From a virus, in IMG/VR virus record IMGVR_UViG_3300030098_006570, positions 62,001-126,000 of that record: a stretch of DNA of 64,000 nucleotides. One strand, given 5' to 3'. Positions 18,778 to 54,760 of the stretch are shown one piece after another. A program made the translations under genes and the position numbers. Numbering within the stretch: position 1 is the first letter of the stretch; each line of letters opens with the position of its first letter. The notes under the pieces were generated by a model. That model ran no database searches, was not told the DNA's origin, and saw only the letters and a program-made list of their open reading frames with translations.

Positions 18778-20343
18778 TTATTCTTCAACTCGAAATTTGA
18801 ACGTTTGGGGCTGTTCAATCCAACTCCCTATACTATCATTATAATATGCTAATTTAATACCATACATGTAGCCAGGGTCCAGAAGTCCCATGTCCAGATC
18901 AAAGTAGTTCCCACTTACATCATATGAAAGATGTGTACAATTATAATCATTGCTTCCTGTGCCGAAAGAGATTACCGTCAGATCATCCACAACTCGGTAG
19001 ATGGAGTAAGACGCACTATTGATAATTTCTGTAGGATTGTTTGCCGTGGCCTTTACATAGATCGTGGGATTCCAATACTTGTTTCTTACAAACGTTCGGA
19101 AGCGCGCTGTTTCGTTCACGCTATAGCTTTTACGCAAATTCCGTATGTTGGTGTTATAATTCAAAGTAGGGGCACTACCATATTTAGGCATCGCGCTAGG
19201 GTAGATGGAACCGGTGAAGAATTCGACCCCATCACTACGGCGCCACACATCATTAATTCCTTCAAAAGGACTCGCGCCGGCCGTCAAGGCAAAACTGCAT
19301 GAATAAATTCCCGTACTAATATAGCTGGCTGTGGCATTCGTGCTTAGTGCCGTCGTAACACCCCCTCCTAAGGGCAGCCGTATCGCGGAGCCCGTCGGTG
19401 CGCCAGTGGCAGAACTGGAATAGAAAGAGGCAGTCAAATTGGCAGCATTTCCTGTGGTGCCAATCCCCGGCAGGTTGACCAGGCGTCCCCGTACGTAATT
19501 ATAAAGATAGATGGAGTTAAGATTATCCGACGCAGGAGCAAAGGAACTTGAAAAATAAAATTGTCCGCGCTGGTCTTTAACGGTGGAGTCCCATCGAGCT
19601 TCAATAACAGGGCGCTTGAAGAAGAACTCCGTTGAACGAGCGAAGAATTTCTTGGTGTAGTAGGTCTGTGTAGCGCCGCCGAGGTTTTGTACCACGCCCG
19701 CTGCTGAGCTAGCAGATGCATAGGCTTCTTCGCTGGACGTGAGAAAAATCCCCACTCCATAGTTGTTGATTCCACCGCCGCCCGGGGTCGCGATCCACTG
19801 TTCAACAAGGCCACTAATATCTAATTCTATATCTTCCCATCCCAAGGGAAAAGTTACTTTATACCTATTACCCGCAGGGTCGGCGCTGGCGGTGGCATAA
19901 TCTCCACCCATATTGGTCCACGCGGTGGTGGTACTCGCCGACATCCAGTTGGATTTTCCAAGATCTTGATAATTATCCATATCAAGTCCCGTACCCTCGA
20001 CCCACTGAGTAGTGATGGGTACAACCTCTAGGGTATACCCTTGCGGCAGGGTCCATGGAGTTTCGGCATTGTACATTCGCAAGAAGAATGAGACTGATCC
20101 CGAAGTCGGCAGCGTACCTGCGCTGCGGGCGGCACTAATCTGGGCGACCGGAAATTGAATTATGGCACGGGACAGTTCTTGGGTGGCGCCGGCTGTCGAA
20201 GATGATAACTGCCCATAAATAGAAAAGATTTCTACAGAATCAGCATACCCCATGTTCGAGCCCGTACCTCGTTGGGTGAGGTTCGACTCCAATGCGTTCG
20301 TGATGGTGTTATCAAGACTAGCTGTGTATCTCAGAATGGCCAT
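18778..20343 (-). CDS. DNRLRE-like beta-sandwich tail or fibre protein
   Basis: A 521-residue protein starting MAILRYTASLDNTITNA. Residues 55-190 follow the pattern of DNRLRE-type extracellular modules: a run RAIIQFPVAQIS, then SVSFFLRMYNA, then LEVVPITTQWVEGTG, then DISGLVEQW. The rest is Ser/Thr/Tyr-rich beta sequence ending EQPQTFKFRVEE. It overlaps the baseplate gp6-like gene by one base (TAATG). Neighbours are the giant LamG protein and baseplate wedge genes, so a fibre or baseplate-periphery role is likely. The DNRLRE assignment is by eye. Confidence 0.65.
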   Translation of the reverse strand: MAILRYTASLDNTITNALESNLTQRGTGSNMGYADSVEIFSIYGQLSSSTAGATQELSRAIIQFPVAQISAARSAGTLPTSGSVSFFLRMYNAETPWTLPQGYTLEVVPITTQWVEGTGLDMDNYQDLGKSNWMSASTTTAWTNMGGDYATASADPAGNRYKVTFPLGWEDIELDISGLVEQWIATPGGGGINNYGVGIFLTSSEEAYASASSAAGVVQNLGGATQTYYTKKFFARSTEFFFKRPVIEARWDSTVKDQRGQFYFSSSFAPASDNLNSIYLYNYVRGRLVNLPGIGTTGNAANLTASFYSSSATGAPTGSAIRLPLGGGVTTALSTNATASYISTGIYSCSFALTAGASPFEGINDVWRRSDGVEFFTGSIYPSAMPKYGSAPTLNYNTNIRNLRKSYSVNETARFRTFVRNKYWNPTIYVKATANNPTEIINSASYSIYRVVDDLTVISFGTGSNDYNCTHLSYDVSGNYFDLDMGLLDPGYMYGIKLAYYNDSIGSWIEQPQTFKFRVEE

Positions 20344-22139
20344 TATCTAACACTCCCCATGATGTCTAGGCTCGGAAATTTCAATTCAAAAATAGTATTC
20401 TCATCCGCTCGAATCATGCGCCCGTCTGCTGACATCGCTCGTTCTGGGTCAAAATCAGATTCGGCATAACGGCCGCCATTCTTTGAAACAATTTCTACAC
20501 CCATAACATCCACAACCCCCTCTACTTTATTAAGTTGACGGTATATATCGTTAATGCGGATTGGTTCGCCAATCTCAAAGCGATTGCGAGCCAAATAGGT
20601 TTGAATATTTTGATTGGCCTGGGCTAGTGCGGTATAGCGACTAGTATTCATGTCGAGACTGAGGGTGTACTTGATGCCAAAATTGATAATGCGAGCATCT
20701 AAAATATCTACAGTATCATTGATCATTTTATAATTAAGAATCCAATTTTTTAGATTATCTTTGAGAGTCTGGTTGGCGGCGACTAATTTTCCGGATGTAT
20801 TTTCCGAAATAACATACAAATTCAAATTACGCTTGAAGGCATCAAAATCGCGGACCAAATTAACCCCGCGTACCGCGCCAAACTTAGTCGGCATCGCGTA
20901 ACACATAGCACGATAATCTTCTGTTGTCACCGCTCGGTGTTGTGTGGCATAAAACCCAAAAACACGCTGCTTGATATCATCCGCCGACGGCATACTCACA
21001 CTTCCCACAAAGGGCGCCTCATTGGTGACCTCTAGTGAGTTCAAAACAGCAGTTCTCTGGGCAACTGGTAGAGTAGCCGGCGAAGAAAATTTTACTAACG
21101 GATTTCCTACAACAACAATGGTATCCGCGCCAGCATTCACATCTTTGGTTGTATTGACACGATATCCGATACGCAAGGTAGTATTAGCCGGCGCAATACC
21201 AAATTTATCCGAAGAAATAAGTTTGGTGGGATCAAAACCTGCATCGGTAATATAATTCCTCCCATTAAGATCTAGCATCAAGTTGGAAGGATCCACGACT
21301 GCTTCAGATACCAGCTCCGAATCTGAGCCGTATCCAAACTGTAAATAAGTACTAGTATCTGTGGATTCCACAACGAAACGACGTGCAACCGGAACAGCCT
21401 TTAGAATATTAGCAACTGTTTGTTTGGTTGCGGTAGTATTACGAATAGCTTTGAAAATAATATTTTGGGAGAGATTGTCGACTTCATAATAGCGGTGCCC
21501 CTCCGAGTCCATGACACTTATTACTTCAGTAACGTTTTGGTTACCTAACTCTACTTTCCGAAAGCGCTCAAATGATCCCACCGTGACTTCCTGAAAGGCA
21601 GTGCGGCCGGAGACAGCTCGACCTTTGGCGCGAATCACATAACTAGTTGGCAATCCACTCGTAGAGTCTACACTTCCTACAACAACCTGGTTGGTGCTTT
21701 GGGAAAAAACCACATCTTGCAAGAGCGAATAAGAGCCGCCGCCGGTTGATGAAAAGGTTGAGCCCGCCTGGAGGGTGGGCGCGAAATTCAAATCGGGTCC
21801 GGGACCAGTAGTAGAAGCTGGCACCTTAATATAAAAAGTAAGCATGCCGTAGGAGGACGGGTTGCGATCAATTTTATACCCTAGTTGTCGAGCTAGTTTG
21901 ACGACGTTATTATACTCAACTGCCGTCTCCAAAAAACTTTCGTTGGCCTGGTAATCCAAGTAGAAGGACAAAATGTCGCCAATATAGGCCACTGTGTCCA
22001 GCATAAGAGAACCAAAAGAAGCTTCATTGAAGTCTTTGTATGTATCCGCATAATAGCGTTTTGCAAAGGTTTCTAAGTCGCGACGAATAGAATCAAAATC
22101 GCGGCTAGTATAATCAATAGGTTGTAATCGTTTAGGCAT
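20343..22139 (-). CDS. 6: Baseplate wedge protein, T4 gp6-like / J-like
   Basis: A 598-residue protein starting MPKRLQPIDYTSRDFDSIRR. The N-terminal PIDYTSRDFDSIRRDL followed by FGSLMLDTVAYIGDILSFYLDYQANESFL is typical of the T4 gp6 / baseplate J family, which forms the wedge dimers at the core of the contractile-tail baseplate. The C-terminal half contains TTEDYRAMCYAMPTKFG and KVEGVVDVMGVEI, also expected of J-like proteins. It lies directly downstream of the gp25-like gene, a conserved pairing. Its length is close to T4 gp6 (660 residues). Confidence 0.9.
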   Translation of the reverse strand: MPKRLQPIDYTSRDFDSIRRDLETFAKRYYADTYKDFNEASFGSLMLDTVAYIGDILSFYLDYQANESFLETAVEYNNVVKLARQLGYKIDRNPSSYGMLTFYIKVPASTTGPGPDLNFAPTLQAGSTFSSTGGGSYSLLQDVVFSQSTNQVVVGSVDSTSGLPTSYVIRAKGRAVSGRTAFQEVTVGSFERFRKVELGNQNVTEVISVMDSEGHRYYEVDNLSQNIIFKAIRNTTATKQTVANILKAVPVARRFVVESTDTSTYLQFGYGSDSELVSEAVVDPSNLMLDLNGRNYITDAGFDPTKLISSDKFGIAPANTTLRIGYRVNTTKDVNAGADTIVVVGNPLVKFSSPATLPVAQRTAVLNSLEVTNEAPFVGSVSMPSADDIKQRVFGFYATQHRAVTTEDYRAMCYAMPTKFGAVRGVNLVRDFDAFKRNLNLYVISENTSGKLVAANQTLKDNLKNWILNYKMINDTVDILDARIINFGIKYTLSLDMNTSRYTALAQANQNIQTYLARNRFEIGEPIRINDIYRQLNKVEGVVDVMGVEIVSKNGGRYAESDFDPERAMSADGRMIRADENTIFELKFPSLDIMGSVR

Positions 22140-22584: not shown

Positions 22585-25500
22585 TTAACACTCCGGCAAA
22601 CTTTCTTCCCCAGAAACTTCAGTCTCTTCTCCATCGAGATCATCTTCGATCGCCTTTTTCGCCAATTCGAGCAAGATGTATAACACTCCAAAAGGAAGAG
22701 GGGGTAACATTATCATGCCAGTAAGGGTGCCTGTGAAGTCAACGCCGTCAAGAGTAAATTTAGGCAAAATATTGTTGATAAGCTCTTCGTTATTGGCGGC
22801 ATTATTGAGCGGCGGAGGACTGGCGCTTATGGCTGCCTCCAGGCCTGATTGCATTCCAAATTCAACCAAACACAGCATAACTCCAAGTAACTGTTCGCCA
22901 GTAATTTCAAGGCCGGTTTGCTCCTTCAACTCTGCTAAGGGTGGAGCTGCATCAATAACTTTGATAATTTCACTAAATGCGGTCCCCGTTATATTGCGCA
23001 CCACCTTCCATATGGCTACGTGGGGGTCTATCATTTCTGCAAGGCCCTTCAAAATCATGATGGGGGTCTCTATGAGCATCTTTAAGATGAAATCACGACC
23101 CATAGACTGCATGGTAGCTGCGAACTCCGGACCTTGTGTGTTTTGAATGGCTGCCCTAGCTGCGGCGCGATCGTTGCCTGGATCTTCCTGCTCTTCTCGA
23201 TTGTACAATACATCTAGGAAAGCGTTAACTATAAAGGCTTTTGTGGCACCGTAGGTTTGATCAATCTGTTCAAAATAGCGCTCCGTCAAATAAAAGTTCT
23301 GGTACATGGGGACCATGGTAATAAATGATTGAATAAAAGTCTCACCAAAAATTTGTTTGTAAACGGGATTATTGGCAATACGCGTCACCTCAGCATTACG
23401 TGCGTTCTGTTGCTGGATCGTAAGAGGCCCTGTCGCTAACCAATCATCCAATTGATCGCGTAAAAGCTCGAAGGCCGAGTCAGGTAAAAAAGCATCCCAC
23501 TGATCGTTTTCTACTTCAAAATCAGCTATCGTCACGCGAATAAGAGGGGTATCAACATACCCTACATTATTGTAAAGGAGAGGAGTATCAACAGGCCTAC
23601 CATCTTCATACGTGAATAGGCTGGCCTGATCTTCTATCAAAGCATCCGCGCTTGCTTCGGTGAGTGCAAACAGATTATTCTGACTCTGATCAAGGTCTTG
23701 CATGTGGCCTATTCGCGAAATCAGCAATGATGCATATGATTCCACTGCAATGTCAGCAGAGGTGCCCTGGCCTTGGAGTTCGTTGTTGGACTGACTAGTG
23801 AACTCCGTGTCGAGACTATTAGTGGTGGAGGGCAAGAAGTAAACAAGCCTAGTTTTTACCCGCAAGTTTACAAAGCTAAAATCGAAGTCAGGTAGGAGAA
23901 TGTTGTGGGACCCCTCTATATAGGGAGGACTTGTGTCGCCCCCATAGAAAGTGTTGCGAAACTCGGATAGTTCCAATTCGCCTCCTAATTCTCTCGTTAG
24001 TTCTAGAGCCTCCGGAGCATCGCCGCCGGTGATTCCGTCCCAAACCACCACTCTCTCTAGCGCAAGAGTGCCGTAAGCTAAAGGAGATCCGTTGGTGCGG
24101 GAGAGTATATTATGACCTGGTTCCAAGTCCATCGATGGGTTTCGAAGGCTCGTGAACCCCAAAATATCCTGAATAAAGGCTTGATTGTAGGTTTTTTTGA
24201 ACTGACCTTGTGGTGTCGCCAGTCTTACTGAATTGGACATAGCCGTTCGGCCCCAGTGAATCCTCTGATTAACCAGATAACTGAGCAACTCTAGCCAGTT
24301 AGCATCTGTAAATATGGTCCCCACGGGAAAGACAACCGCCTCATTGTGATCCAGGATGCCGCCGCGGGAAGCAACCACAGCGCGGCCCATCTTGCGATTG
24401 TAATACTCTTGAATAGCTCGGCGCATATCCGGTTGTTGGTTGATACGTCGTTCAAGATCCCCCAGGATCTGAGCTGTCATAAACTGTGCTATGACGGGAT
24501 CCGACATCAACTCATTGACATTGAATGCAGCAAAGGCAAAGATGTTTTTAATAACAAATTCGGCTACCTCGATCTGAATAAGATTCAAGAATAATGACAA
24601 CAGCACCGCATATCGGATCTTGTCGTCCAAAGGTATATCATCATCAAAACAAGCAGATTCTAAGAATTCTTCTTTAACCTGTCTTAGGATTCCGTCAGCA
24701 TCTAGAAGATCGGCTGCTGCTTGGGGGGGGCAATTACTGTTATCTTTGAAAAATTGCAAAGCGCGGACCCCAGCCGCATCAAATACGCCATTTGCAGCAA
24801 TATAGTTAAACATAGCTTTGGTAAGGCCAGCATACAATGACGGATAAAGCCAGGTCTCTATTTCTTCGGTAATAATTAGGTTCTGTTCGAGAGTAGTTGT
24901 ATCCTGTAATATAGGCTGGAGTCCGGTGGCGACAGGGCCTGTGAACCTGTATACATAAGGGTTAGTTTGTAGTCGCATCCCCATTTCCTGGTCAACGCCC
25001 GTCGCAACTGGATAGAAGTGGGATCCCAACACGTCCAATACCGAGGAGCTAATTTGGAATTCAGCTTTTGGCGGCAATATAGTCCCAATGCCCGAGGCAC
25101 TAATTTGTACCTCAGCAAAGCTAAGATTCTCTGCATCCTCTCCACCTCCCATGGCTACTGCGGTGTTGAATCTAGGGTATGAAAGGGTCAAACTATCTTT
25201 GCGGCCAATGGTAGAAAAATTATAGGTTAGGCTGAGATCCCGATAGGCCAAGGCGCCGGCGCCGATATTGGTGACGATGACTGCGTCGGGATCGGCGAGA
25301 GTAGGGTTCCAAGTGGCCAGGGAGCCTGTATTTAGGCTTTCGTCGGCGCTCGTAGCCACATAATGGTTTGCCTCAACTCGCTCAGTCGTATTATTAAAGG
25401 TGGGGGCGCTAGCAATATAATTGGTGAAATTTGAGAGATAATTACTTGGGAAAGAATAAGTGGCACGCAAGTTATTGGGGCCAGGGCCGTCGCTACTCGT

Positions 25501-28221
25501 AATCTGTGCCGCAATGTCCCCTAGCCGGTCGTTGATAGAGGTAATAGCATCAACAAAATCAGGATCCGCAAAGACATCACCCAGGACCTGGAAACTTGCC
25601 TGGAGCGCGCTGATATTTGGGACACCGGCACAGTTCGGGCTCCCCAGTGCCTCTTCGAGGTTGGTCGCGAATTCAGAAAAACCTGTCATCACATCCTGAA
25701 GCATATCCTCGGCCGCGCTGCCGAGATCGGCGCCCTCTTCATTCTGTGGGGTGGGTAAAAACTTATTCATTATATCTAAGGTAGCTTGGCCCTTGGTAGA
25801 GGCCCCCCCATTACTACCCGCAACCACGCCGGGCTCCAATAATGTATCGAGTACGGCCTCTGTCGAATTAATAAACTGCAGTTCAATTGCTTCTGTAGTA
25901 AAATTGAGAATCTGGGGAACACTACGTTCAATGAGAGGATTGCTGATGAACCCTTCTTTATCGGGACAATCAAAATTGATTGGGGGAAGATCTAGTTGTA
26001 GACCGTTCTCAATAAGGTCCAACAGCGAATCTATATCCTGTGCATCTATGGCATTTGCGACATCTTCTTCTGTTAGACAAATGTTGTCTTGATTTATCTC
26101 ATACGCGCCGTCAACTATCTCATCACATAATGATGTCACATCAACAATTTCCGAAAGATTGGCAAAAAAGGCCATCACCGCATTGACGGTCAACAACTGA
26201 GTATTTACATAGGGATGCGGATAGGTTCTATTATAATCAATGATACGAAGACTTAGTTCATCGCTCACCAAGTCCCGATTGGTAAACAATAGGCAAATTT
26301 CAAGAGAACTTAAAATATTGGACAAGTCTTGCAAATAAGCATACAGGTCATCTGGTGGCATGGGACGATTTAGTAGAGCAGCCGCATTTGGATTGGCGCC
26401 ATAAATATTCCCAGGAGTTTGGGGGAGAAACTCGGTGATGTCACGAGCACCATAATCATTCGCATAAGGATTATTAAAATCACAAGCCTCACTTATCAGC
26501 TTGGCCAGCTCCTTCATAATTTCCAATACAGCGTTGCGTAAACCATCCAACAACGCCTTGAGTATCTGCTTCCAAATATCTCCTGTAAGAGAGAAGGGCT
26601 TAAACATCTCTAGATCAATATCGGGCTTACTAATTTCATTTTTGGGCAATTCCGGGGGAAGATAAATACTTCCCGCTTGGTTGGTCAAAGCCCGCTGAAC
26701 CGCCTGGTTGATTCTGGCCATCTCTGGCGCTATGCCCAACGTTAAGCATCGGAAAGCTTCCTTTGCTAATTCACTTACACCAAACTGACGAAAGACCAAA
26801 TCTAGAGGAGAATTCTTTTTTACAAAACCTAGCGGACCTTGAGTTAGGAGCTGATCTAACTTTTTACTTACATTGATGCCCGCTTTGAGGACCGCAGCTT
26901 TCTGTTCTGCGAATACTTTGGCTGCTAACTCAGGATTTTCTAGTACTTTTTCTTTAAGTTCCTTGACCTGTTCCGAAGTAAGGGCAGCCTCCATTCCATC
27001 AGAAAGGGCTTGAGTATTTATGGGAATGCCTGCGTCTTTGGCGGCCTTAATAAATCCCTGATGAGCCTCTTCGGCTGCATTTTCAGTAATAGGAGTGACG
27101 AAATCAAACTGATCCCAATTATCCTCGAAGTTGAACTGACCACCTCCCAGTTGCATAAAGCTGCCGGTCCCAACAGTGTCGACAAAATCGAGAAAAGAAT
27201 AGCCGGTATTACCTACAATGCCAGGGGGCTGCTGTTGCATCCTCTGCATACCCTCCAGGACATCCTCATAGTTCTTCATGAGGCTCAGCCCTAACTTATC
27301 ATGCATAAGCGGGTTGTACTTGACATTGGTAAGATAGCCAACTGCTAATGTCTGTGTTGCCGGCGACTCTTCCTCTACAAAATACTCCATTTTCGAGATG
27401 GCAATCTTATCCTCTTTGTCTGCATAAGTACCGAAATAAATTGTCAAACTATCGGCTTCATTAAAATCTTGAACATCATTTTTAGAATTGAATTGCTTTA
27501 CTAGGACTTGCACAAAAAGGCTAAGAAATTTTTGAATATCTCTTTGGAAAAAAGTAAGGTCCAGCGCCGGAGTACTATTTGCAGGCATCGTAAGGAGTTG
27601 AAGAAAAAACCTCTGAAACCCTTGGGCGAAAACGTCTGCGGATGACAGAACATCAGTGAGAAGGAACGTTGTCTGAGAGTCGGGGGCCGTAATACCCCCG
27701 TCCTCTTGAAGGCTGTTGAAGTATTCTACTACCGGAGCCATGGGAGGAAGACCGGCAAAACCTACAAGTTCGCCCTCTTGGTTATAGATTCTTTGTTGAG
27801 AGGGCGCATAGGTCCCGTCCCCTATAGTGCGACGGACACTATCCACCGACTCGCCGCGGTTCGGGCTATAGCTTGCGACCACGTACGACCGATCGAAAGG
27901 AGGCGCTGCGCTGTGATAATAGCCGGCTACGGCTACCTGGCTTGTCAGCTGGGCGCGGAGCACTTCATAGGTGTCCTGATATTCCGGGACATCAGGAAAT
28001 ATATTCCCCAAATCTTCAGCTAGTCCGGGCCAATACTCCGGATAATAATGCATCATAAAGCGATCTATAGCTTCTTCCTTAAGAGAGGGGGCACGTGCTT
28101 GAAAATCGGCGTTATCGGTGATGCGAGTTTCAGTGTGTAAGCGCACATAATAACGTCCCTTTTCGAAAAAAGGAATGTTAGGGGTGGCGCGTCTGAATTT
28201 CTTTCCTGTGAGTTTGGCCAT
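22585..28221 (-). CDS. Very large baseplate-cluster structural protein
   Basis: An 1878-residue uninterrupted frame starting MAKLTGKKFRRATPNIPFF. The protein is rich in Asn/Glu/Leu with several helical hydrophobic stretches (for example FGVLYILLELAKK near the C-terminus) that look amphipathic or buried rather than clear membrane spans. No enzyme motif was found. It is encoded between the gp25-like gene and the hub genes, where T4 carries wedge and hub components. A tape-measure role is possible from size, but its sequence is not repetitive coiled coil, so baseplate or hub is as likely. Family not recognised. Confidence 0.65.
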   Translation of the reverse strand: MAKLTGKKFRRATPNIPFFEKGRYYVRLHTETRITDNADFQARAPSLKEEAIDRFMMHYYPEYWPGLAEDLGNIFPDVPEYQDTYEVLRAQLTSQVAVAGYYHSAAPPFDRSYVVASYSPNRGESVDSVRRTIGDGTYAPSQQRIYNQEGELVGFAGLPPMAPVVEYFNSLQEDGGITAPDSQTTFLLTDVLSSADVFAQGFQRFFLQLLTMPANSTPALDLTFFQRDIQKFLSLFVQVLVKQFNSKNDVQDFNEADSLTIYFGTYADKEDKIAISKMEYFVEEESPATQTLAVGYLTNVKYNPLMHDKLGLSLMKNYEDVLEGMQRMQQQPPGIVGNTGYSFLDFVDTVGTGSFMQLGGGQFNFEDNWDQFDFVTPITENAAEEAHQGFIKAAKDAGIPINTQALSDGMEAALTSEQVKELKEKVLENPELAAKVFAEQKAAVLKAGINVSKKLDQLLTQGPLGFVKKNSPLDLVFRQFGVSELAKEAFRCLTLGIAPEMARINQAVQRALTNQAGSIYLPPELPKNEISKPDIDLEMFKPFSLTGDIWKQILKALLDGLRNAVLEIMKELAKLISEACDFNNPYANDYGARDITEFLPQTPGNIYGANPNAAALLNRPMPPDDLYAYLQDLSNILSSLEICLLFTNRDLVSDELSLRIIDYNRTYPHPYVNTQLLTVNAVMAFFANLSEIVDVTSLCDEIVDGAYEINQDNICLTEEDVANAIDAQDIDSLLDLIENGLQLDLPPINFDCPDKEGFISNPLIERSVPQILNFTTEAIELQFINSTEAVLDTLLEPGVVAGSNGGASTKGQATLDIMNKFLPTPQNEEGADLGSAAEDMLQDVMTGFSEFATNLEEALGSPNCAGVPNISALQASFQVLGDVFADPDFVDAITSINDRLGDIAAQITSSDGPGPNNLRATYSFPSNYLSNFTNYIASAPTFNNTTERVEANHYVATSADESLNTGSLATWNPTLADPDAVIVTNIGAGALAYRDLSLTYNFSTIGRKDSLTLSYPRFNTAVAMGGGEDAENLSFAEVQISASGIGTILPPKAEFQISSSVLDVLGSHFYPVATGVDQEMGMRLQTNPYVYRFTGPVATGLQPILQDTTTLEQNLIITEEIETWLYPSLYAGLTKAMFNYIAANGVFDAAGVRALQFFKDNSNCPPQAAADLLDADGILRQVKEEFLESACFDDDIPLDDKIRYAVLLSLFLNLIQIEVAEFVIKNIFAFAAFNVNELMSDPVIAQFMTAQILGDLERRINQQPDMRRAIQEYYNRKMGRAVVASRGGILDHNEAVVFPVGTIFTDANWLELLSYLVNQRIHWGRTAMSNSVRLATPQGQFKKTYNQAFIQDILGFTSLRNPSMDLEPGHNILSRTNGSPLAYGTLALERVVVWDGITGGDAPEALELTRELGGELELSEFRNTFYGGDTSPPYIEGSHNILLPDFDFSFVNLRVKTRLVYFLPSTTNSLDTEFTSQSNNELQGQGTSADIAVESYASLLISRIGHMQDLDQSQNNLFALTEASADALIEDQASLFTYEDGRPVDTPLLYNNVGYVDTPLIRVTIADFEVENDQWDAFLPDSAFELLRDQLDDWLATGPLTIQQQNARNAEVTRIANNPVYKQIFGETFIQSFITMVPMYQNFYLTERYFEQIDQTYGATKAFIVNAFLDVLYNREEQEDPGNDRAAARAAIQNTQGPEFAATMQSMGRDFILKMLIETPIMILKGLAEMIDPHVAIWKVVRNITGTAFSEIIKVIDAAPPLAELKEQTGLEITGEQLLGVMLCLVEFGMQSGLEAAISASPPPLNNAANNEELINNILPKFTLDGVDFTGTLTGMIMLPPLPFGVLYILLELAKKAIEDDLDGEETEVSGEESLPEC

Positions 28222-40311: not shown

Positions 40312-41310
40312 TCACGGTTCCGGCGAATATAGAGGGAGATTGAGGATAGTGGAATGAACCTCTTCTAAAAGGGGTAAACAGTGTTTCTCTACTGAAGACC
40401 AATAAGCGGTAGTGTGAAGCATGGGATAGTGGCGCGCTACTCCGATTCTCTCTGTCAAGGCCTCTGCATTATCCACCAAAGTGGTTCCCAAATAATAAGA
40501 AGAATGGGAATCTTGGGGGAGTAATGTAAATTCTTCGCCCCACCTTTCATAGTTAGTTTTGCGCTCGGCTAATTGTGCTGCGTAACGAGGCAACTGCGTA
40601 AGCGCTACTGTTGCGCTTAAGTTATTCATATAAAATTTAAACCCCTCCTGGGTGATGTCATAAGAGGACCCAGAGGTCACGCGCCCAAAATTGCGATAAG
40701 AGCGGAAATAATTTTCCGCCGCCGAATCGTTGGTGCCAATAAGGCCGCCGTCGGGACTACATATGGGCTTATAAGGATGAAAAGAGAAAAATACAAAATC
40801 AGATTTGATCGTAGGAGTCACGCAATGGGCGCTATCTACCACCACTACCTCATCTCCATAAGGTTCAAAATCTTCAATATTACTCACACCCCCATAAAGG
40901 ACCGGCATGAGAACAACCGGCAGGGAGGGTTTCTGCAAAGAAACTGCAAGGCGCCTCTCTTTATAAGAAGTTGTCGAAAATTGGAGATCTTTATTCACAT
41001 CCACAAATATGACCCGATGGCCATTTTGCCGCGCGGCCCAGGCGGGAGATGTAAACCCGAGGGATGTGGTATAAACATCACACGGGCCTTTAAGTGCGAA
41101 AAGATAAGCGAAAATCATATAGGCTGCAGCGCTAGCGGAATTTGTGGCAATATTGTAAGATTTATGTGAAAAAGATGTAAACTGATTTTCAAATTCTGTA
41201 ACGTTGGGACCGAAACCGAGGGCGCCCTTTTGGAGAACCTCTATAATAGAGGGCAGATCTTCAGCAAGTATAGAAGAATCAAAGGCCTTCATTTTAGAAG
41301 ATATCTTCAT
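40312..41310 (-). CDS. DegT/DnrJ-type sugar aminotransferase (PseC-like)
   Basis: About 332 residues. The ATG at 41310 has GGGGGAGC at proper distance; an ATG six bases earlier is too close to it. Family motifs: GALGFGPNVTEFENQF at the N-terminus, DSAHCVTPT (PLP ring aspartate and histidine region) and FFSFHPYKPICSPDGG, where the lysine of HPYK is the PLP Schiff-base position. The enzyme would transaminate the 4-keto sugar made by the dehydratase at 41388-42362, as PseC does after PseB. It is slightly shorter than typical (about 370). Confidence 0.88.
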   Translation of the reverse strand: MKISSKMKAFDSSILAEDLPSIIEVLQKGALGFGPNVTEFENQFTSFSHKSYNIATNSASAAAYMIFAYLFALKGPCDVYTTSLGFTSPAWAARQNGHRVIFVDVNKDLQFSTTSYKERRLAVSLQKPSLPVVLMPVLYGGVSNIEDFEPYGDEVVVVDSAHCVTPTIKSDFVFFSFHPYKPICSPDGGLIGTNDSAAENYFRSYRNFGRVTSGSSYDITQEGFKFYMNNLSATVALTQLPRYAAQLAERKTNYERWGEEFTLLPQDSHSSYYLGTTLVDNAEALTERIGVARHYPMLHTTAYWSSVEKHCLPLLEEVHSTILNLPLYSPEP

Positions 41311-41387
41311 AAACATGCTCCCCCGAGTTATTGGTCATTATATATTTACGAGCACCGGCGCCCTGGGACCAATATTCCTCTTGTGGA

Positions 41388-42362
41388 TTAGTTGGCATCG
41401 CCCAATCCCCGCTCAATCAGTCGCACTAATTCATCCACATTATCACTCATATGCAATGCGGAGTTGAACTCCGGGCCATCATAGGACGCCCAGGCTGTCC
41501 GAGCGGTGCGATTAGTATATTGAGGGCGTACGCCCAACAGATTGAGGCCGGGGACCGCGTAAGTAAACGGTAATTCGGTGGCGGCGAGCATATCTTCGTG
41601 AAGTTTCTCTCCAGGTCGCAGCCCGATCAATTCATAGTCGACAGGGGCGCCGTGCAACTTCTCCACGGCTTTAATAATTGTAGTCATATCATAAGAGCAG
41701 ATCTGGGGAATAAAAACTTCGCCACCCTCGGCATTTTCGAGGGCGCCCAGGACCGTATCCACTGCATCTTCGAGGGTAAACAAAAAGCGGGACATCTCAA
41801 GCGACGTCACTTTGATATTCTTCCCCTCCCCAAGAAGACCGAGCCATAGAGGGATAAAAGATCCGCGGGACGCAATCACATTTCCATATCTCACTGATGC
41901 AAAGATGGTTCCTTCGGATTGATAGTCATAGTTGGTGTAGAGTCGTTCTGCGATAAACTTTGAGGACCCATAGACGTTGACCGGTTGGCAGGCCTTATCG
42001 GTGGAAATAAGAATACACTTTTTCACCATGTTCAAAAGAGCGGCCCGGGCCACATTTTCGGATCCAGCAATATTAGTTTTTACACACTCATCCGGGTAGA
42101 ATTCCATATCATCAATACGTTTGAGAGCGGCGGTGTGGATAACATAGTCGGGCTTGAAGCGCTTCATTGTAACATTGAGTTTATCGAAATCTCGTACGTC
42201 CCCAATGACGCGTATAACCTCAGGTAATGGCCCAAAGGAAAGGGCTTGTTTGCCTTCGTCACGGCTAAACACCACTATCTTATTCAAAGGATCTTTGAGT
42301 AGGCGTTTGATGAGGGCTTTTCCAAGCGATCCCGTGCCGCCCGTAATCAAGTATGTTGTCAC
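41388..42362 (-). CDS. pseB: UDP-GlcNAc 4,6-dehydratase (PseB-like)
   Basis: A 324-residue SDR protein. It has the NAD(P) loop TGGTGSLGKAL (residues 7-17), the STDKACQPVNVYGSSKFIAE region with the STDK and Y-x-x-x-K catalytic elements, RYGNVIASRGS and LIGLRPGEKLHEDML, all typical of PseB 5-inverting dehydratases. It would turn UDP-GlcNAc into the 4-keto-6-deoxy sugar that starts pseudaminic acid synthesis. GTG start in a GTGA overlap with the glycosyltransferase fusion gene; 71-base gap after it before the aminotransferase. Confidence 0.9.
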   Translation of the reverse strand: MTTYLITGGTGSLGKALIKRLLKDPLNKIVVFSRDEGKQALSFGPLPEVIRVIGDVRDFDKLNVTMKRFKPDYVIHTAALKRIDDMEFYPDECVKTNIAGSENVARAALLNMVKKCILISTDKACQPVNVYGSSKFIAERLYTNYDYQSEGTIFASVRYGNVIASRGSFIPLWLGLLGEGKNIKVTSLEMSRFLFTLEDAVDTVLGALENAEGGEVFIPQICSYDMTTIIKAVEKLHGAPVDYELIGLRPGEKLHEDMLAATELPFTYAVPGLNLLGVRPQYTNRTARTAWASYDGPEFNSALHMSDNVDELVRLIERGLGDAN

Positions 42363-44398
42363 AGTTCCACCCGTTCTATCTTATCGTCAGCCGGATTCAG
42401 CCGGGAGATAATCTTTAGTTCACACTCATTTTGGCGAAGCCAATCGTGCCAGTCACCCACTACACTCAAAGTAATTCCCTCCTCATGAGGAAGCGTTTTG
42501 GCCGCCGTCTCGTTGGCGGCGACTTCATTGGAGTGGATAAATTCTTCCTTCTTGTAAGTACTGCCTTCTTTATCATAAAAGTGTTGGTGAGCAGCGCCTT
42601 CGGGGAGCAATTTATTGTCCCATCCAATAGTGATGACCTCGCTCACCCCCAGATGCTGAAGGAGATAGAAGACAGCCTCGTACATGATGCCGGGCCCATA
42701 AGGACGGAGCATTCCTTGTTTGTCCAGGGTCCACTCATCAAAATTCTTCTTGGCCGCTACGGAGTTATCAAAATTTCTCTCCTGAATAAAGAACTTCAAA
42801 TCACACTCTCCCAACTTGAAAGGAGTAGTGGACGCTTCCAAAACGACTGGGCGGCGCGCAGTGTAGTCATACTTCTTATAGTTAGCGCAGTTATAAACAT
42901 GGAAATCCGTGAACGATGCAAACAGATCATAAGCCTGTTTGATGGCAATCGTGAGATTATTTTCCAGCAGCCCCTTTACGGCATCCTCATCGTGTTCTGT
43001 TAACGTGGGTCCGCAAGAGAGCACATAACATTTCTCTCCCTTGAAGAGGTCCTTCAGGAGGGCCAGCTTTTCGGACTGCAGACCGAACTGGGCGACGGCC
43101 GTTGTTGCAGCTGCAGCACGATCTTTGGGGTTTTCTATCTGCAGTAGATCTTCGCGTGCTTTCCCAATACTGTCTTTGGTGCCCTCCAGGGGTACCCCTA
43201 AGCTCTCAACAAACTGTGCATACATATTTTCCGGAGTGAAGTTCTCAAGGATATGCTTTTGAAGAGCGAGAGCCTCTTGCTTATAGTGCTGCTGCTTGGT
43301 AATTGCCTCCTTGAGGGCGCGCTTGTACGAGTTTTCCTTGGCATAAGCCCACATAGAATCCTTTTGGAGGACCCCATCCCAGACGGCCGCCTTCTGAATC
43401 GGCTTCACATTATAATCTACCTTGATGATACGAGGAAAGTTTTTACCCTTCTTGTTGGGACGACAAATGTAATCCATCTGCCCGCTCCACGCCATCGTGA
43501 TAAGCGGAAGACCATTATATGCTGCCTCAAACATAGGGAGGCCATACCCTTCCCCGTGAGCGATATTAATCAAGGCGCGCATGGACGGGTGCTGATAGAG
43601 CCACGTAAGGTTCTCCATACTAATCTCTCCATGGACCATGTAAATCTTGCATTTGCGGTCCGGGATGGCCTGCAGGATTCGCTCAATTGTCCACCCTGTG
43701 TGGTAGCGATCTCGAATACTGTCGCATGCGATGCTTGTCTTGACCACAAGTCCCGCTGTCTCATCATCTTTGAAAGTTTCCGCAAACCACTTAATGGTGT
43801 TTTCCATATTCTTCCGGGGGCCCCACTGCGACACTACCAAGAAATTATTAGTAGTGGTAAACTCGATGTTTAGGGGGTCAGCTTCTCTTACCCGCGTGGG
43901 GTAATTCACAACTTCTACAGGGAGGTCAGGGCGCAGGCCCCAGTTCGGCACCTCTTCACCGGTTTCCTGAGCAGTGACAGCGTACTTTGTATTCTGGAAT
44001 ACATCTCGTGAATGTGCAGAAATGGTAACCAAGCGCTGTACCGTCGTGTTGCATTTTTCAATCCACTGGGGGGCGACCTTGGTTGTTTCAATTCCAGCCG
44101 TATACCCAACGTTGTAGGGAGCAATGGGCTCAAACTCATTTGGAATAGTCACCTGTAGGGACATGTCAAAGGTCCCGCCGTTTTGAGTATAAACTTGAGT
44201 CTTTAGCATCAAGCTGTCCAACCACCGGCGCTCTTCGCTGTTTTCCATCATCATCCCGGTTTTCCCCCATGGGATATTGATAGCATAAATATCAAATACG
44301 TCTTCTCGGGTGCGCAATGCTCGCAGCGCGAACCGGGCCTGTTCGCCATAGCCGGATCGGCTAAGAGCCGGCGCCTTCACTAATATTTTCTTTTTCAT
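42359..44398 (-). CDS. Glycosyltransferase fused to a GNGPSL-type domain
   Basis: A 679-residue two-part protein. Residues 1-405 are a GT4-like glycosyltransferase: the EX7E pair is E283 and E291 in HGEGYGLPMFEAAYNGLPLI, with the acceptor-side loop SRSGYGEQAR at 14-23. Residues about 452-640 form a second module: EKCYVLSCGPTLTEHD, then GPGIMYEAVFYLLQHLGVSEVITIGWD, close to the pattern of GT42/DUF115 proteins. The linker (405-450) is helical and Ala-rich. This could transfer two sugars in sequence. GTGA overlap with the dehydratase. Confidence 0.75.
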   Translation of the reverse strand: MKKKILVKAPALSRSGYGEQARFALRALRTREDVFDIYAINIPWGKTGMMMENSEERRWLDSLMLKTQVYTQNGGTFDMSLQVTIPNEFEPIAPYNVGYTAGIETTKVAPQWIEKCNTTVQRLVTISAHSRDVFQNTKYAVTAQETGEEVPNWGLRPDLPVEVVNYPTRVREADPLNIEFTTTNNFLVVSQWGPRKNMENTIKWFAETFKDDETAGLVVKTSIACDSIRDRYHTGWTIERILQAIPDRKCKIYMVHGEISMENLTWLYQHPSMRALINIAHGEGYGLPMFEAAYNGLPLITMAWSGQMDYICRPNKKGKNFPRIIKVDYNVKPIQKAAVWDGVLQKDSMWAYAKENSYKRALKEAITKQQHYKQEALALQKHILENFTPENMYAQFVESLGVPLEGTKDSIGKAREDLLQIENPKDRAAAATTAVAQFGLQSEKLALLKDLFKGEKCYVLSCGPTLTEHDEDAVKGLLENNLTIAIKQAYDLFASFTDFHVYNCANYKKYDYTARRPVVLEASTTPFKLGECDLKFFIQERNFDNSVAAKKNFDEWTLDKQGMLRPYGPGIMYEAVFYLLQHLGVSEVITIGWDNKLLPEGAAHQHFYDKEGSTYKKEEFIHSNEVAANETAAKTLPHEEGITLSVVGDWHDWLRQNECELKIISRLNPADDKIERVEL

Positions 44399-45654
44399 CA
44401 GTACACCTTCACTTCATAGCTATTATAACCGGTCCGGTTCTCCCATGATCCCATGGTTTCATGGACATGCGTGAACAAATTGTCCCATCGCTCCACAAAC
44501 GTTTCGAACCCAAACTGCTTTTCAGCCCAAGCACGACCGCGGAGGCCCCACTCGCGCCGCTGTTCTTCCGGCATCTTATACATATCCGTCAGAGCTTGCA
44601 CTACGTCCTCACCAGCCAGTCGGTCCTCGTATATAAAGGGAACTTCCTGACTGCCAATGATAGATTTGGACGATGGTTCTAATCCGATTCCGTACCAATT
44701 ATCCTCTCCATCCTTTATCTGATCCTGAAGCCCTCCTGTCAGGGTTGCTATGATTGGGGTGCCACAGGAGAGAGACTCCAATGTAGATAACCCGAATCCT
44801 TCAGCGTCTGACACATTGATTGTGGCATCAGCAAGATTATACATCATTGCTAAATCAACCGCATTCACTTTTTCTTTAGACAACAAAACCTGGCCGTTTG
44901 TCAGGTCAAGCTCTTTCATAATCGCTTCCAAATCCTGCCCATGAACGTCCTTTGGGTCTGTGTGCATTATAAGGGTGGCCTTGTCATGTAGATCGTTTTG
45001 GTCTAGAAAATCCTTAAACCAATAGATAAGAGATCCTGACTGTTTACGTCGTGCATTTCGATTATTCCATGCTACTACAAACTTGCCGGCTAATCCCTTC
45101 TCTTCCTTTATTGCCGCCACAGCCGCGGGGTCCAGCGGCTTGAAAATTTCCCCGTCCACCGCGTGGGGGATATAAGAACTCTCCACACTAGGCGAGACAG
45201 TTTGTACAATATCATATGTAAGCTGTGAAATGCAAGCAATATGATCGTTAGAATCGTACCAGACGCGATTGAAGCTAGGATAGGGATAATTATCCCACAC
45301 ATGATAGTAAACCATGGGAACATGCGTTCTGATTTCGTTCTCAATATCCCACAGCCATGTATAAAATCTGGGATCGGTCATAAACCAGAGAATATCCGGC
45401 TTTTGCTGGTGAATCATCGCGCGAACCATGTCCGCGTTTCCGTACCCATCTACAGGCCAAATGATCCAGTCTTGTCCCCACTCAGGCGTATGCTGAGGGT
45501 CGTGACGGGGGTGCTTGATGGCACCGCCGAAGCTGACAAATTGATATTTTCCTGTCTTGAGCATCCCTTCGATAATGTATTTTGTTTGTGTGCCCACACC
45601 GGAAGGGGAAAGCGGGTGGTCACTGATCGTAAAGATCTTAATCTTGTCTGACAT
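44398..45654 (-). CDS. GT4-type glycosyltransferase
   Basis: A 418-residue protein starting MSDKIKIFTISDHPLSPSG; the ATG at 45654 has AGGAG nine bases upstream, so it is chosen over a start at 45696 that would overlap the nuclease gene. The GT-B fold shows SPSGVGTQTKYIIEG at the N-terminus and the EX7E motif in DAEGFGLSTLESLSCGTPII (about residues 298-317). The donor is not visible. One-base overlap with the fusion glycosyltransferase next in the operon. Confidence 0.85.
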   Translation of the reverse strand: MSDKIKIFTISDHPLSPSGVGTQTKYIIEGMLKTGKYQFVSFGGAIKHPRHDPQHTPEWGQDWIIWPVDGYGNADMVRAMIHQQKPDILWFMTDPRFYTWLWDIENEIRTHVPMVYYHVWDNYPYPSFNRVWYDSNDHIACISQLTYDIVQTVSPSVESSYIPHAVDGEIFKPLDPAAVAAIKEEKGLAGKFVVAWNNRNARRKQSGSLIYWFKDFLDQNDLHDKATLIMHTDPKDVHGQDLEAIMKELDLTNGQVLLSKEKVNAVDLAMMYNLADATINVSDAEGFGLSTLESLSCGTPIIATLTGGLQDQIKDGEDNWYGIGLEPSSKSIIGSQEVPFIYEDRLAGEDVVQALTDMYKMPEEQRREWGLRGRAWAEKQFGFETFVERWDNLFTHVHETMGSWENRTGYNSYEVKVY

Positions 45655-45662
45655 TCTGTCTC

Positions 45663-46445
45663 CTAACGACAATGTTCGGTATTGAGGAGCTTGCATGGAT
45701 ACGGCTTATGGCAATGCAGCCGGTTTTTGATAGCAAACTTTTTGGTTATATTGTATATTGCTTGATATAGAAGTTTAAGCGCGTTTTCCGTTTTTTTGGG
45801 TCCGCTCGTCACTCTAAAAATCTCCACACGATCTTTTTTAGCCGTGCGCTTGAGCAGTGCAAAGTGGGTCTCAACGCTTTTAGGATCTATACCGTGCTTT
45901 TGGCAAAAAAAGTGCTTGTATAGTGTAAGCTGGTAAGTGACCATCTTTTCAGCCTTCTTGCGGGAATCCCATCCCCAAGAGCAGGTTTTCCAGTCAAAAA
46001 GGTGGTAAGTGTCCCCTACCTTAACGACTGCATCCACAAAACCTTTAAAATTTATATTGAAATTCTCAATAGGAACGTAAAGCATTTCCTCCGAAGAAAA
46101 AACCTCGTAATCGCCAAAATACTCTTTCAGTGCAGATTCAACCTGGGCTAGTATCTGAGGGCCCGCTTGACGCATCTGCTTTACATTGTTGGCGTTTACA
46201 TCAATGTTCTTTTCAAACAATTTTTGTAGCTGCTTATCAAAGCCAATCTGGAATATCTCTGTTTCATCAATATCTTCTTTGAGAAGCTTCTTTTCACAGA
46301 CATCATGGATGGCAGTCCCAAAAGCGGTGTATTCGTTGCCTTCAAATGGAGCAACTCTTTCCACCCAAGCCTTCTTATGGTAATGGGGACAATGCGCCCA
46401 ATCTTTTAGTTCTGAATAAGATATGTGTTCACGCGGTTGCATCAT
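45663..46445 (-). CDS. PD-(D/E)XK nuclease with Cas4-like cysteines
   Basis: A 260-residue protein of the RecB/Cas4-like superfamily. Catalytic residues in order: H47 (GTAIHDV), D138 (KGFVDAVV), D151 and K153 (LFDWKTC), then the YQLTLYKHF motif. Cysteines C19, C245, C251 and C259 are placed like the one N-terminal and three C-terminal iron-sulfur ligands of Cas4/AddB, although the spacing C-x5-C-x7-C is not the usual one. It probably cuts or processes DNA ends. It overlaps the metalloprotease end by 17 bases. Confidence 0.78.
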   Translation of the reverse strand: MMQPREHISYSELKDWAHCPHYHKKAWVERVAPFEGNEYTAFGTAIHDVCEKKLLKEDIDETEIFQIGFDKQLQKLFEKNIDVNANNVKQMRQAGPQILAQVESALKEYFGDYEVFSSEEMLYVPIENFNINFKGFVDAVVKVGDTYHLFDWKTCSWGWDSRKKAEKMVTYQLTLYKHFFCQKHGIDPKSVETHFALLKRTAKKDRVEIFRVTSGPKKTENALKLLYQAIYNITKKFAIKNRLHCHKPYPCKLLNTEHCR

Positions 46446-47049
46446 CTACTATTTCTGTTATTACTTGATATAAAATGGGGGAGGTCTTAGCGACCACGGA
46501 GGGAGTATCGAGAAAATATTTTTCAAATCCATTAGCAAAGTACTCTGGCAGCGATGTAGCGCCATAAGGGGAAACAAATAGACCCATTGTCAGCATTACC
46601 AAAGTCGGATATCCCACTTCATTGGCTAAGAATTCATCAAACTGTTGATTATATTCTGTATACTGATAGAGCAGCGGATTAATATGATATCCTTCAGCAT
46701 TGAGGAGATGCCGGAGCTTTTCTCTCTTTCCTAAGAACTCCTCTCGGAGCGCAGAATTATGAATAAGATTCTCGTACTTTTTTTCTAGGGCATGAGCCAC
46801 TTCATGAATGAAGTTCTCCAGCATATCAAAAACTGATGGTTCTTTCGAGGTCATATAAACAGCATCATTAGCATATGTTGCGTTGCGACCATTGAGTTCA
46901 GGGAAATCCCCAATGTAAACAATGTCGATGTTGTCCAATAGTTCGGGTGCCATATACTCTTCGACTGAGCTACAAAACTCACTAATCTCCACACCCTTTT
47001 GGAGGGGGGATGTTACAAACACCGGAATATTATAAATATAATATTCCAT
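46429..47049 (-). CDS. HExxH zinc metallopeptidase-like protein
   Basis: A 206-residue protein. H82-E83-x-x-H86 (FIHEVAHALEKKY) is a zinc-protease helix, and EYFANGFEKYF near the C-terminus could supply the third ligand, a pattern like lethal-factor-type (M34-like) peptidases. It has no signal peptide, so it would act in the infected cell. Substrate unknown; host-protein or structural-protein processing are both possible. TAATG overlap with the small gene upstream. Confidence 0.7.
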   Translation of the reverse strand: MEYYIYNIPVFVTSPLQKGVEISEFCSSVEEYMAPELLDNIDIVYIGDFPELNGRNATYANDAVYMTSKEPSVFDMLENFIHEVAHALEKKYENLIHNSALREEFLGKREKLRHLLNAEGYHINPLLYQYTEYNQQFDEFLANEVGYPTLVMLTMGLFVSPYGATSLPEYFANGFEKYFLDTPSVVAKTSPILYQVITEIVDDATA

Positions 47050-50660: not shown

Positions 50661-50736
50661 TGGTGCCGGCGCCACGAATCGAACGCGGGACCTGCGGGTT
50701 ACAAAACCGCTGCTCTACCAACTGAGCTACACCGGC
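50661..50736 (-). tRNA. trnT: tRNA-Thr (anticodon TGT)
   Basis: A full cloverleaf: acceptor GCCGGTG/CGCCGGC, D-stem GCTC/GAGC, anticodon arm GCGGT TTTGTAA CCCGC (anticodon TGT, Thr; the inner stem pair is T-C), T-stem CCGCG/CGTGG with loop TTCGATT, discriminator A and encoded CCA. The stop codon of the class II aldolase gene lies inside its 5' end, at TA of the GTGTAGCTC segment. Confidence 0.92.
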
Positions 50737-51347
50737 GTTTTATTCATTATACTAGGTCTGACCCCAGAATTCAAGACAATTTGGCAAATGTGTTCCAGAC
50801 GCTCTATGTGCTCAAAGGCGTCCCATGGATTTTTTCCGACCGCACATACTCCATGATTTCCTTGTCCCACCACATCGTATTCCGGCTTGCCCGGGCGTAC
50901 GCCCAAGGCTTTAGAAGTAGCATCCGCCAAGGCCTGAGAGACCGCTGGGAGCACTGGAACATTGGGGCCCACGCGCGTGTACCTATAGATCTCGGGAAAC
51001 TGGCTCGCCATGATCTTGAGATCCCAACCGGCGTACATTGCTGCCACGATATTAGTGGAATGTACATGGAGAACACAGCGAGTCCTCACCGCGTCTTTTA
51101 AAATCTGCCAGTGCATCTCTAGCTCCCCAGAAGGGTTTTCCACCCAGGGCTTGTCAGCCAACGAGCCGTCTTCCGCAATGCGAATAGATTTAATAAACTC
51201 GGGATATATCAGATTCTTTCTCACCCCAGAGGGAGTGATATATATTTTCCGATCGCCACTCTTACGGAGTGAACAGTTGCCATCGCGCGTAGTTATCCAC
51301 CCACGCTTATAACACTCTCTCATCACATCGCCGATTGCTGTTATCAT
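50727..51347 (-). CDS. Class II aldolase/adducin-like protein
   Basis: A 206-residue protein with class II aldolase features: TTRDGNCSLRKSGDRKIYITP (substrate phosphate loop equivalent of GNVSVR), the zinc histidine pair LHVHSTNIVAAMY and QGNHGVCAVG late in the sequence. Relatives include fuculose-phosphate and ribulose-phosphate enzymes and MtnB; the substrate cannot be told. Its last codons ACG CCG GTG TAG are part of the tRNA-Thr 5' end, an overlap of ten bases. The start lacks a clear Shine-Dalgarno site. Confidence 0.82.
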   Translation of the reverse strand: MITAIGDVMRECYKRGWITTRDGNCSLRKSGDRKIYITPSGVRKNLIYPEFIKSIRIAEDGSLADKPWVENPSGELEMHWQILKDAVRTRCVLHVHSTNIVAAMYAGWDLKIMASQFPEIYRYTRVGPNVPVLPAVSQALADATSKALGVRPGKPEYDVVGQGNHGVCAVGKNPWDAFEHIERLEHICQIVLNSGVRPSIMNKTPV

Positions 51348-53476: not shown

Positions 53477-53559
53477 TGGTGGAGGTGCACGGAGTCGAAC
53501 CGTGGTCCTGAGAATGCCATTGCAGGATTTAATCTCAGTCGAATTCCCAAACCACCCCC
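53477..53559 (-). ncRNA. Minimal tmRNA-like RNA without a tag region
   Basis: An 83-nt RNA with a tRNA-like end matching tmRNA: acceptor GGGGGTG/CACCTCC with G3-U70 (the alanine identity pair), discriminator A and encoded CCA; T-stem CACGG/CCGTG with loop TTCGACT; and a D-loop without a D-stem, TTTGGGAATTCGACTG, closely matching the tmRNA string TTCTGG-ATTCGACGG. GGAC stands before the T-stem as in tmRNA. Instead of the 250-nt mRNA-like domain and pseudoknots there is only a stem CTGAGA/TCTCAG closing a 19-nt loop. It is not a normal tRNA and has no tag frame. Confidence 0.75.
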
Positions 53560-53590
53560 ATTTAGTCCTTGACAGGCCAAAATAATTAGG

Positions 53591-53947
53591 TTACCATTGG
53601 TTTATGTCGTCTTTTTGTATCCTATACTTTTTCTTCAATACTTTTAAGGTCTCATCAGTGACTCCTAAAATTCTCGTCATTTCTTTATTTGTGTTAGCTA
53701 TGCTAACAACAGAATTGAAGAGAGCTTCTTTCACGAGAGCCACCGTATTGGACCATAGGTTAAAACCATATAGTTTGCCATTAGTTAGACGACTGGCGCA
53801 CTCAAGTTTGAGACCAATAATTTCTTCCAGAGTTAATGCAGAAAGCATTATTTCAAATGCTTCATTTGACTTTCCGTGGTTCCTCAGCTTTTGTGAGAAA
53901 GAAATATCACTGCAAAAACCCTGGGAATCTGACTTCCGGGGTTTCAT
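53591..53947 (-). CDS. Small helical phage protein, HTH-like end
   Basis: A 118-residue, mostly helical protein. Its C-terminal NTNKEMTRILGVTDETLKVLKKKY resembles a helix-turn-helix, although the turn is not classical. The start is directly after the preceding TAG with a poor ribosome binding site. It lies between the acidic protein and the tmRNA-like RNA. Function unknown; a nucleic-acid-binding role is a guess from the helical end. Confidence 0.6.
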   Translation of the reverse strand: MKPRKSDSQGFCSDISFSQKLRNHGKSNEAFEIMLSALTLEEIIGLKLECASRLTNGKLYGFNLWSNTVALVKEALFNSVVSIANTNKEMTRILGVTDETLKVLKKKYRIQKDDINQW

Positions 53948-54760
53948 CTATAATAAGTTTTCGATAATATCGTCTATATCTAGAAAATTAGCTATTTCTT
54001 GTAGCTCAATGTTGGCAACGGTATCTTCTTCCGCCTCTTCGGCACTGGCGTCACCCACCGCGGCCGCCGCTGCAGCGGGTTCGGGCACATCTGTCTGCAG
54101 TTCTGTCTCGAATTTGTCAAAATACAGCGCAAGATTTTTTAGTAGATACTCCTCAAACATAGCAATATCGTCGGCGTTGTCAAGGTCATCATATGCTGTA
54201 AGAATGCTCTTCTCGATGTCTTGGAAGTCGGTGAATGCGCGGTTGCGTCCAGTCTTATCTTCCCCATTAAGCCCAAACTCTGACTTGGGATCGACTTCAA
54301 CCTCTTCTTCGTCATCGATACTAATAAAATCCGGATCATCTTCGGGCCGGTCGCCAATATCAATTTCAATATCTTCATCGATTGGGGCCCCGAGTTCCTC
54401 GTCTTCCCCCGCCTCTTTGCGAGATTCTTCGGGGGCAAGTGATTTTTCGACAGCAGCTAAAATATGGTTACGATATGATTCACGCTGCTCCACCGCGGTG
54501 GTAAGGGACTTATATCCGGTCTCTATAGTTGACAAAACATTAGTGTTTCGTAGAAGGTCCTCTAGAGCATTGATTCCCGTACTGTCATGTTTGGCAACTG
54601 CTGCAACGGCAGCACTTTCAGTAATAAGGTCACGGATAATCTGGCGAAGTTCGTGCTCTTGGTTACTCTTATGCTCTCTGCGAGATTTTACAATCCGAAT
54701 CGCATCACGAACTGCTTCTCTCAATTGGATTTCCTGTGCTACTTCTGCTCGATCAATCAT
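53948..54760 (-). CDS. Acidic protein of the head region, scaffold-like
   Basis: A 270-residue, very acidic protein. Residues 1-120 are helical and mixed charge (QEIQLREAVRDAIRIVKSRR), then a run of Asp/Glu (DEDIEIDIGDRPEDDPDF), then an Ala-rich helical end. Acidic, helical head proteins are common as prohead scaffold or core, for which it is a candidate. SD GGTGGGAT and a CTATTTA box 23 nt upstream. No known family. Confidence 0.55.
   Translation of the reverse strand: MIDRAEVAQEIQLREAVRDAIRIVKSRREHKSNQEHELRQIIRDLITESAAVAAVAKHDSTGINALEDLLRNTNVLSTIETGYKSLTTAVEQRESYRNHILAAVEKSLAPEESRKEAGEDEELGAPIDEDIEIDIGDRPEDDPDFISIDDEEEVEVDPKSEFGLNGEDKTGRNRAFTDFQDIEKSILTAYDDLDNADDIAMFEEYLLKNLALYFDKFETELQTDVPEPAAAAAAVGDASAEEAEEDTVANIELQEIANFLDIDDIIENLL

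Follow-up and report, generated by a model that had tools for sequence, protein, structure and literature searches.

Can a tmRNA that lacks the reading frame for its tag still be a selected RNA, and what would a phage do with it? This question is raised by an 83-nt element at positions 53477–53559 of the window (the 64,000-nt stretch of viral DNA analyzed here, positions 62,001–126,000 of IMG/VR record IMGVR_UViG_3300030098_006570). A first-pass annotation had placed a tmRNA-like RNA at exactly these positions and left the strand unstated; it is the minus strand. The element is termed here a mini-tmRNA (a tagless, TLD-only tmRNA).

Identity and Anatomy of the 83-nt RNA

A cmscan search shows the Rfam tmRNA model RF00023 to match positions 53477–53559 (minus strand) over model positions 1–374 of 374, with a score of 54.6 bits (E-value = 1.1e-18), above the gathering score of 47. 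A covariance model of the family (R1) gives 71.1 bits. The first-pass annotation had named a better score to a canonical tRNA model as a reason to abandon the tmRNA assignment. No tRNA model is best at this position and the tmRNA model wins the clan. ARAGORN makes no call at the mini-tmRNA, and in the whole window it reports only a tRNA-Asn and a tRNA-Thr. A tRNA identity is rejected on these two grounds; the D-stem and anticodon arm of a tRNA are also missing from the mini-tmRNA. A permuted or two-piece tmRNA (RF04321) is rejected as well, as the match is partial and weak (17.9 bits, where the cut-off is 47) and the parts are in order from the 5′ end to the CCA. No second tmRNA or mini-tmRNA-like match is present elsewhere in the 148-kb IMG/VR record.

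The 5′ strand of the acceptor stem, GGGGGUG (positions 53553–53559), includes G3 of the G3-U70 pair. It is followed by a D-loop without a D-stem, GUUUGGGAAUUCGA (positions 53539–53552), that displays GG..UUCGAC as in tmRNA, and the last C of UUCGAC opens stem P2. The two strands of P2, CUGAGA (positions 53533–53538) and UCUCAG (positions 53508–53513), form a covarying helix found at positions 24–30/50–56 of alignment A2, where six of seven pairs show changes on both sides. Between them are an A-rich internal loop and an inner hairpin, UUAAAU-CCUGCAAUGG-CAU (positions 53514–53532), which stand in place of the mRNA-like domain and pseudoknots; the hairpin is paired in 90% of cells and recurs in the family. 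The linker GAC (positions 53505–53507) is the end of GGAC, and covariation links its first position to the D-loop base that precedes P2. The T-arm, CACGG-UUCGACU-CCGUG (positions 53488–53504), is paired in 100% of A2 cells. The 3′ strand of the acceptor stem, CACCUCC with U70, is followed by A73 and an encoded CCA (positions 53477–53487). The acceptor stem (GGGGGUG/CACCUCC) thus has 7 bp and P2 has 6 bp, with the inner hairpin closing P2.

No tag frame, resume codon or stop is present between the P2 strands, and the total length is just 83 nt. Pseudoknots PK1–PK4 are absent, the short inner hairpin alone lying between the P2 strands. The earlier reading, that the tRNA-like half of tmRNA is real and that a short hairpin has taken the place of the mRNA-like domain and pseudoknots, is therefore borne out by the model match, the sequence elements and the fold. 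The window RNA is a phage-encoded tagless tmRNA, in which the tRNA-like domain is closed by a short conserved hairpin. Because it has no tag and no pseudoknots it falls outside the definition of a canonical tmRNA. A minimal tag within the reduced inner hairpin was considered and rejected; by eye, stop triplets occur in some members of the family and not in all.

The folding stability of the mini-tmRNA is unremarkable (z = −0.65). As the folding energy is not special, the case for this RNA rests on homology and covariation.

The Locus and Exchange with Full tmRNA

The gene upstream of the mini-tmRNA (positions 53591–53947, minus strand) encodes 118 aa and ends 31 nt ahead of it. Beyond is a gene for a 270-aa protein (positions 53948–54760, minus strand); neither gene has a family match. 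The 270-aa gene, the second one upstream of the RNA, was the query by which orthologous loci were found, in a first search and then in a deeper one.

The same mini-tmRNA, 82–83 nt in length, is present at the same locus in nine more related marine phage contigs, which makes ten distinct phages with the window. In ten equally close relatives this position, following the same gene, is occupied by a full tmRNA of ~310 nt (one is 364 nt long); its tag is normal and in most cases ANDADYGLALAA-like. In more distant relatives any recognizable RNA near the locus is a full tmRNA, and many have none. In a protein tree the mini and full forms are interspersed, with at least five changes (bootstraps 4–6), and the best-supported branches alone do not formally exclude a single origin. 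The stems of the minis differ from those of the neighboring full tmRNAs, and the inner hairpin resembles that of minis found elsewhere. The plain reading is that one locus holds either a mini or a full tmRNA, exchanged as cassettes.

The full one-piece tmRNAs downstream of the 270-aa gene are those at L008:3722-4035 and in L231, L236, L238–L240, L242, L244, L245 and L248. Full tmRNAs also follow this gene in about 40 more distant marine phage relatives; across both groups the tags include ANDADYGLALAA and ANNNNNFESVRLAA. A TGTCAA box (positions 53569–53574, minus strand), 10–15 nt upstream of the RNA, is present at this locus ahead of the minis and of the full L008 tmRNA alike, and may be a promoter or a processing element.

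Covariation and Alanine Identity

In a 26-member alignment, standard pairs are present in 96.1% of the pair cells. The covariation score reaches 0.656, compared with 0.143 for shuffled data and 0.13 or less when the strands are slid. The alignment was made from sequence only. Because family members supplied the structure, the unslid version has an advantage, but the margin is large. All four helices covary. The acceptor stem, P2 and the T-stem have changes on both sides in many members, and the signal is weaker in the inner hairpin. Among minis selected by their hairpin, the bases that flank P2 on the D-loop side and on the linker side are A/G in 19, C/U in four and U/C in three, as would be expected of a tertiary pair.

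The G3-U70 pair is kept in all 26 members of the alignment and in 96 of the 97 pattern-scan matches listed. The single deviation, in L016, comes from a register error, and L016 does have G3-U70. In a scan where the D-loop and linker were unconstrained, G3-U70 is present in 37 of 38 matches and A73 in 38 of 38. Other acceptor pairs change freely while G3-U70 and A73 stay almost without exception. These elements give AlaRS identity, and it is established that they lead to charging. The patterns indicate that the mini is a folded RNA that would be kept chargeable with alanine; the near invariance of G3-U70 and A73 suggests that selection maintains alanylation.

Could the mini be a functionless remnant, left by a full tmRNA or by a tmRNA attachment site? 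The ssrA gene is a frequent site of phage integration, and close relatives of the window phage have a full tmRNA. However, both halves of the RNA are present and base-paired, compensatory changes are found throughout, and the form recurs in many unrelated phages. In addition, among the nine mini-carrying contigs compared (window included), identity is 90% in the RNA, 65% in the upstream coding DNA and 50% and 48% in the spacers. A remnant is thus highly improbable. The first-pass annotation had allowed for a broken remnant and for a lack of conservation or covariation in relatives; both are contradicted by the conservation and covariation described above.

Family Size and Distribution

Pattern and covariance searches yielded at least ~135 further minis in diverse phage contigs. 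The viral searches need partial sequence motifs, and their counts are lower bounds. The pattern scan of viral contigs gave at least 120 matches, with ~110 complete minis with a 7-bp acceptor stem among the matches listed. A scan for the inner hairpin and T-loop that left the D-loop and linker free gave hits in 53 contigs, and 37 of 38 distinct matches are good minis. No single conserved neighbor gene was found for the minis; their neighbors are a mix of head, protease, portal, terminase and DnaB helicase genes.

Only ~10 true minis were found among 84,980 genomes of bacteria and archaea, and several of these adjoin phage genes, e.g. those for terminase or head proteins. Most of the 83 matches from the bacterial-genome scan were rejected as ordinary tmRNAs that contain TTCGAC by chance. 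At the sensitivity used, the minis appear to be phage-specific. Their hosts are probably diverse, since mini-bearing contigs include ones named Actinobacteria, Cyanobacteria, Bacteroidota and Chloroflexota.

Several cultured Streptomyces phages (GiJojo, LuckySocke, pSt2308, Shaeky and BRock) have a mini, which is mostly unannotated, and more diverged copies of the same type are found in Alone3 and Riptide. In GiJojo, gene 44, annotated as a hypothetical protein (L220:2999-3241), overlies the mini-tmRNA, probably through an annotation error.

The minis of the named phages sit within tRNA arrays, several of them upstream of an RNA ligase, and over the family a same-strand tRNA lies within 1 kb of the mini at 25 of 132 loci, where seven are expected. 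This placement would suit an RNA that belongs to the phage tRNA repertoire and serves as a replacement, or as a decoy, against host defence nucleases that cut tRNA or tmRNA. On the other hand, about three quarters of the mini loci have no tRNA nearby, and the mini lacks the anticodon arm that anticodon nucleases would act on. A role of this type is quite unlikely.

A few contigs have more than one such element. L016 has two minis in tandem (positions 6723–6803 and 6815–6881), the first without the TTCGAC D-loop. L085 also has two (positions 5–84 and 1317–1395), the first with an altered T-loop, and one of these copies is possibly decayed. At L188:592-671 a second RNA-like element adjoins the mini, with the inner hairpin GGTAAGACCGCTCGCGGAAC and an aberrant T-loop, GTGCAAATC; this is possibly a decayed copy.

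Protein Partners and Proposed Function

SmpB was found in none of 58 mini-carrying viral records (G000 included), many of which are fragments, and a release-factor-type domain (RF-1/ArfB) in none of 42 phage records. The mini must therefore rely on host proteins. SmpB is encoded in six of seven bacterial assemblies that have a mini on one contig.

An RNA similar to the mini is described in two papers as a strong inhibitor of tmRNA in E. coli, whether chargeable or not, perhaps via titration of SmpB (PMC4131195, PMC11915505). By analogy with this reported inhibition, the earlier suggestion of a decoy that diverts trans-translation is the best supported of the ideas for function. The reading preferred here, with a probability of roughly 0.5, is that the mini is a host-charged, SmpB-binding and tagless competitor of host tmRNA, which would lower tagging in infected cells. 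It would be cut from a phage transcript by host tRNA-processing enzymes and presumably charged with alanine by host AlaRS. Host SmpB and EF-Tu would then bind it. The mini would be a rival of host tmRNA for both SmpB and stalled ribosomes, leaving fewer chains with a proteolysis tag during infection. This inhibitory step is borrowed from the reported behavior of the DS6A-type RNA in E. coli.

This competitor reading is favored by the tmRNA match, conservation confined to the RNA, the covariation, the alanine identity, the exchange with full tmRNA and the lack of a phage SmpB in the records searched. Several observations stand against it. One 124-kb phage contig (G011, L227) has both a full tmRNA (positions 77588–77979) and a mini (positions 46486–46567), which is odd for a mere inhibitor. 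Many minis have no encoded CCA and depend on a CCA-adding enzyme. The exchange with full tmRNA could equally mean a shared job. Furthermore, the quoted inhibition is independent of charging. This last point leads to a simpler alternative, in which tight binding to SmpB (or to AlaRS or EF-Tu) suffices and charging is irrelevant. It agrees with the inhibition regardless of chargeability summarized in PMC4131195; a pure sponge, however, leaves unexplained why G3-U70 and A73 are almost never lost while other acceptor pairs vary freely. Such a simple sponge is unlikely.

The main rival to the competitor reading is rescue without a tag. A charged mini together with SmpB would enter stalled ribosomes and take the nascent chain on its alanine, and the ribosome would be freed by drop-off or another release. 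Several rounds might produce a template-free alanine tail, and the phage would recycle ribosomes without tagging its own products. The invariant alanine identity fits this, and a common task is suggested by the swap with full tmRNA at one locus, although that swap fits both readings. It has also been reported that SmpB with a TLD fragment yields polyalanine without mRNA in vitro (PMC3929946), and that conservation of tagless mitochondrial tmRNAs goes hand in hand with that of SmpB (PMC11915505). However, with no tag stop codon there would be no normal termination, release would depend on the host as no RF-1/ArfB-type domain is encoded in the phage records searched, and the DS6A-type RNA is reported to inhibit. 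Tagless rescue is a tentative alternative.

A wider proposal is that tagless tmRNAs are a large phage-specific class, an alanine-charged and SmpB-dependent device that acts on stalled ribosomes without a template, for example by adding untemplated alanines or by parking the ribosome, and that they are an alternative allele of the phage tmRNA. This proposal is somewhat doubtful. If true, phages would opt either to tag stalled chains or to leave them untagged.

Relation to Known tmRNAs

The mini-tmRNA has the G3-U70 acceptor, stemless D-loop (GG..UUCGAC), P2, GGAC and T-arm of canonical one-piece tmRNA (ssrA, RF00023, phage copies included), and in relatives the two occupy the same genomic position. 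Unlike the mini of 83 nt, canonical tmRNA is ~310–400 nt in length with an mRNA-like domain, tag and pseudoknots.

The first-pass annotation knew of no described phage RNA of this form. This did not stand, as mycobacteriophage DS6A was listed in 2014 with a ‘TLD only’ tmRNA (tmID 11587; Mao et al. 2009, cited in both PMC4131195 and PMC11915505), and plastid forms without a CDS (~65 bp) were described in 2025. The kind of RNA is thus already known from one described phage member. Compared by description only, the DS6A RNA is likewise phage-encoded, with little beyond the tRNA-like domain of tmRNA and no tag frame. It differs in being known from a single phage, whereas the family of the window RNA has well over 100 members and the window RNA alternates with full tmRNA at its locus.

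Tagless mitochondrial tmRNAs (jakobids and others; RF02544) and the plastid tmRNAs of Mallomonadaceae (PMC11915505) have also lost the mRNA-like part and kept the tRNA-like part. The mitochondrial genes are as a rule permuted or in two pieces, in contrast to the phage RNA, which is a single uninterrupted molecule without permutation. The two-piece permuted tmRNA of marine phages (Melnitz, PMC9004378) is likewise a tmRNA gene in marine myophages; its gene is permuted and includes a coding piece, and neither applies to the mini.

What appears to be new is the scale of the family, the swapping at one locus, the strict alanine identity and the conserved inner hairpin; no earlier report of such scale was found in the open-access literature searched. 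What was a one-phage curiosity is now seen to be widespread among phages and under selection, and annotation tools overlook it. Full and tagless tmRNAs at one locus in close relatives are a natural experiment on why phages carry trans-translation RNAs, and the cultured Streptomyces phages with a mini make the question directly testable.

Other Features of the Phage Genomes

The contig with both tmRNA forms (L227) also has a cold-shock-protein open reading frame and a stretch, GAGGAAAGTCCGAAC, that is reminiscent of RNase P RNA and scores below the Rfam cut-off.

The window phage resembles T4-like myoviruses, e.g. Flavobacterium phage immuto, to judge from distant matches found with a baseplate protein and with the upstream 621-aa protein. 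Two very long open reading frames on the minus strand encode 3269 aa (positions 8961–18770) and 1878 aa (positions 22585–28221), with a baseplate wedge gene nearby (positions 20343–22139). The window also displays a sugar-metabolism cluster, with aminotransferase, glycosyltransferase and class II aldolase/adducin genes (positions 40312–45696 and 50727–51347).
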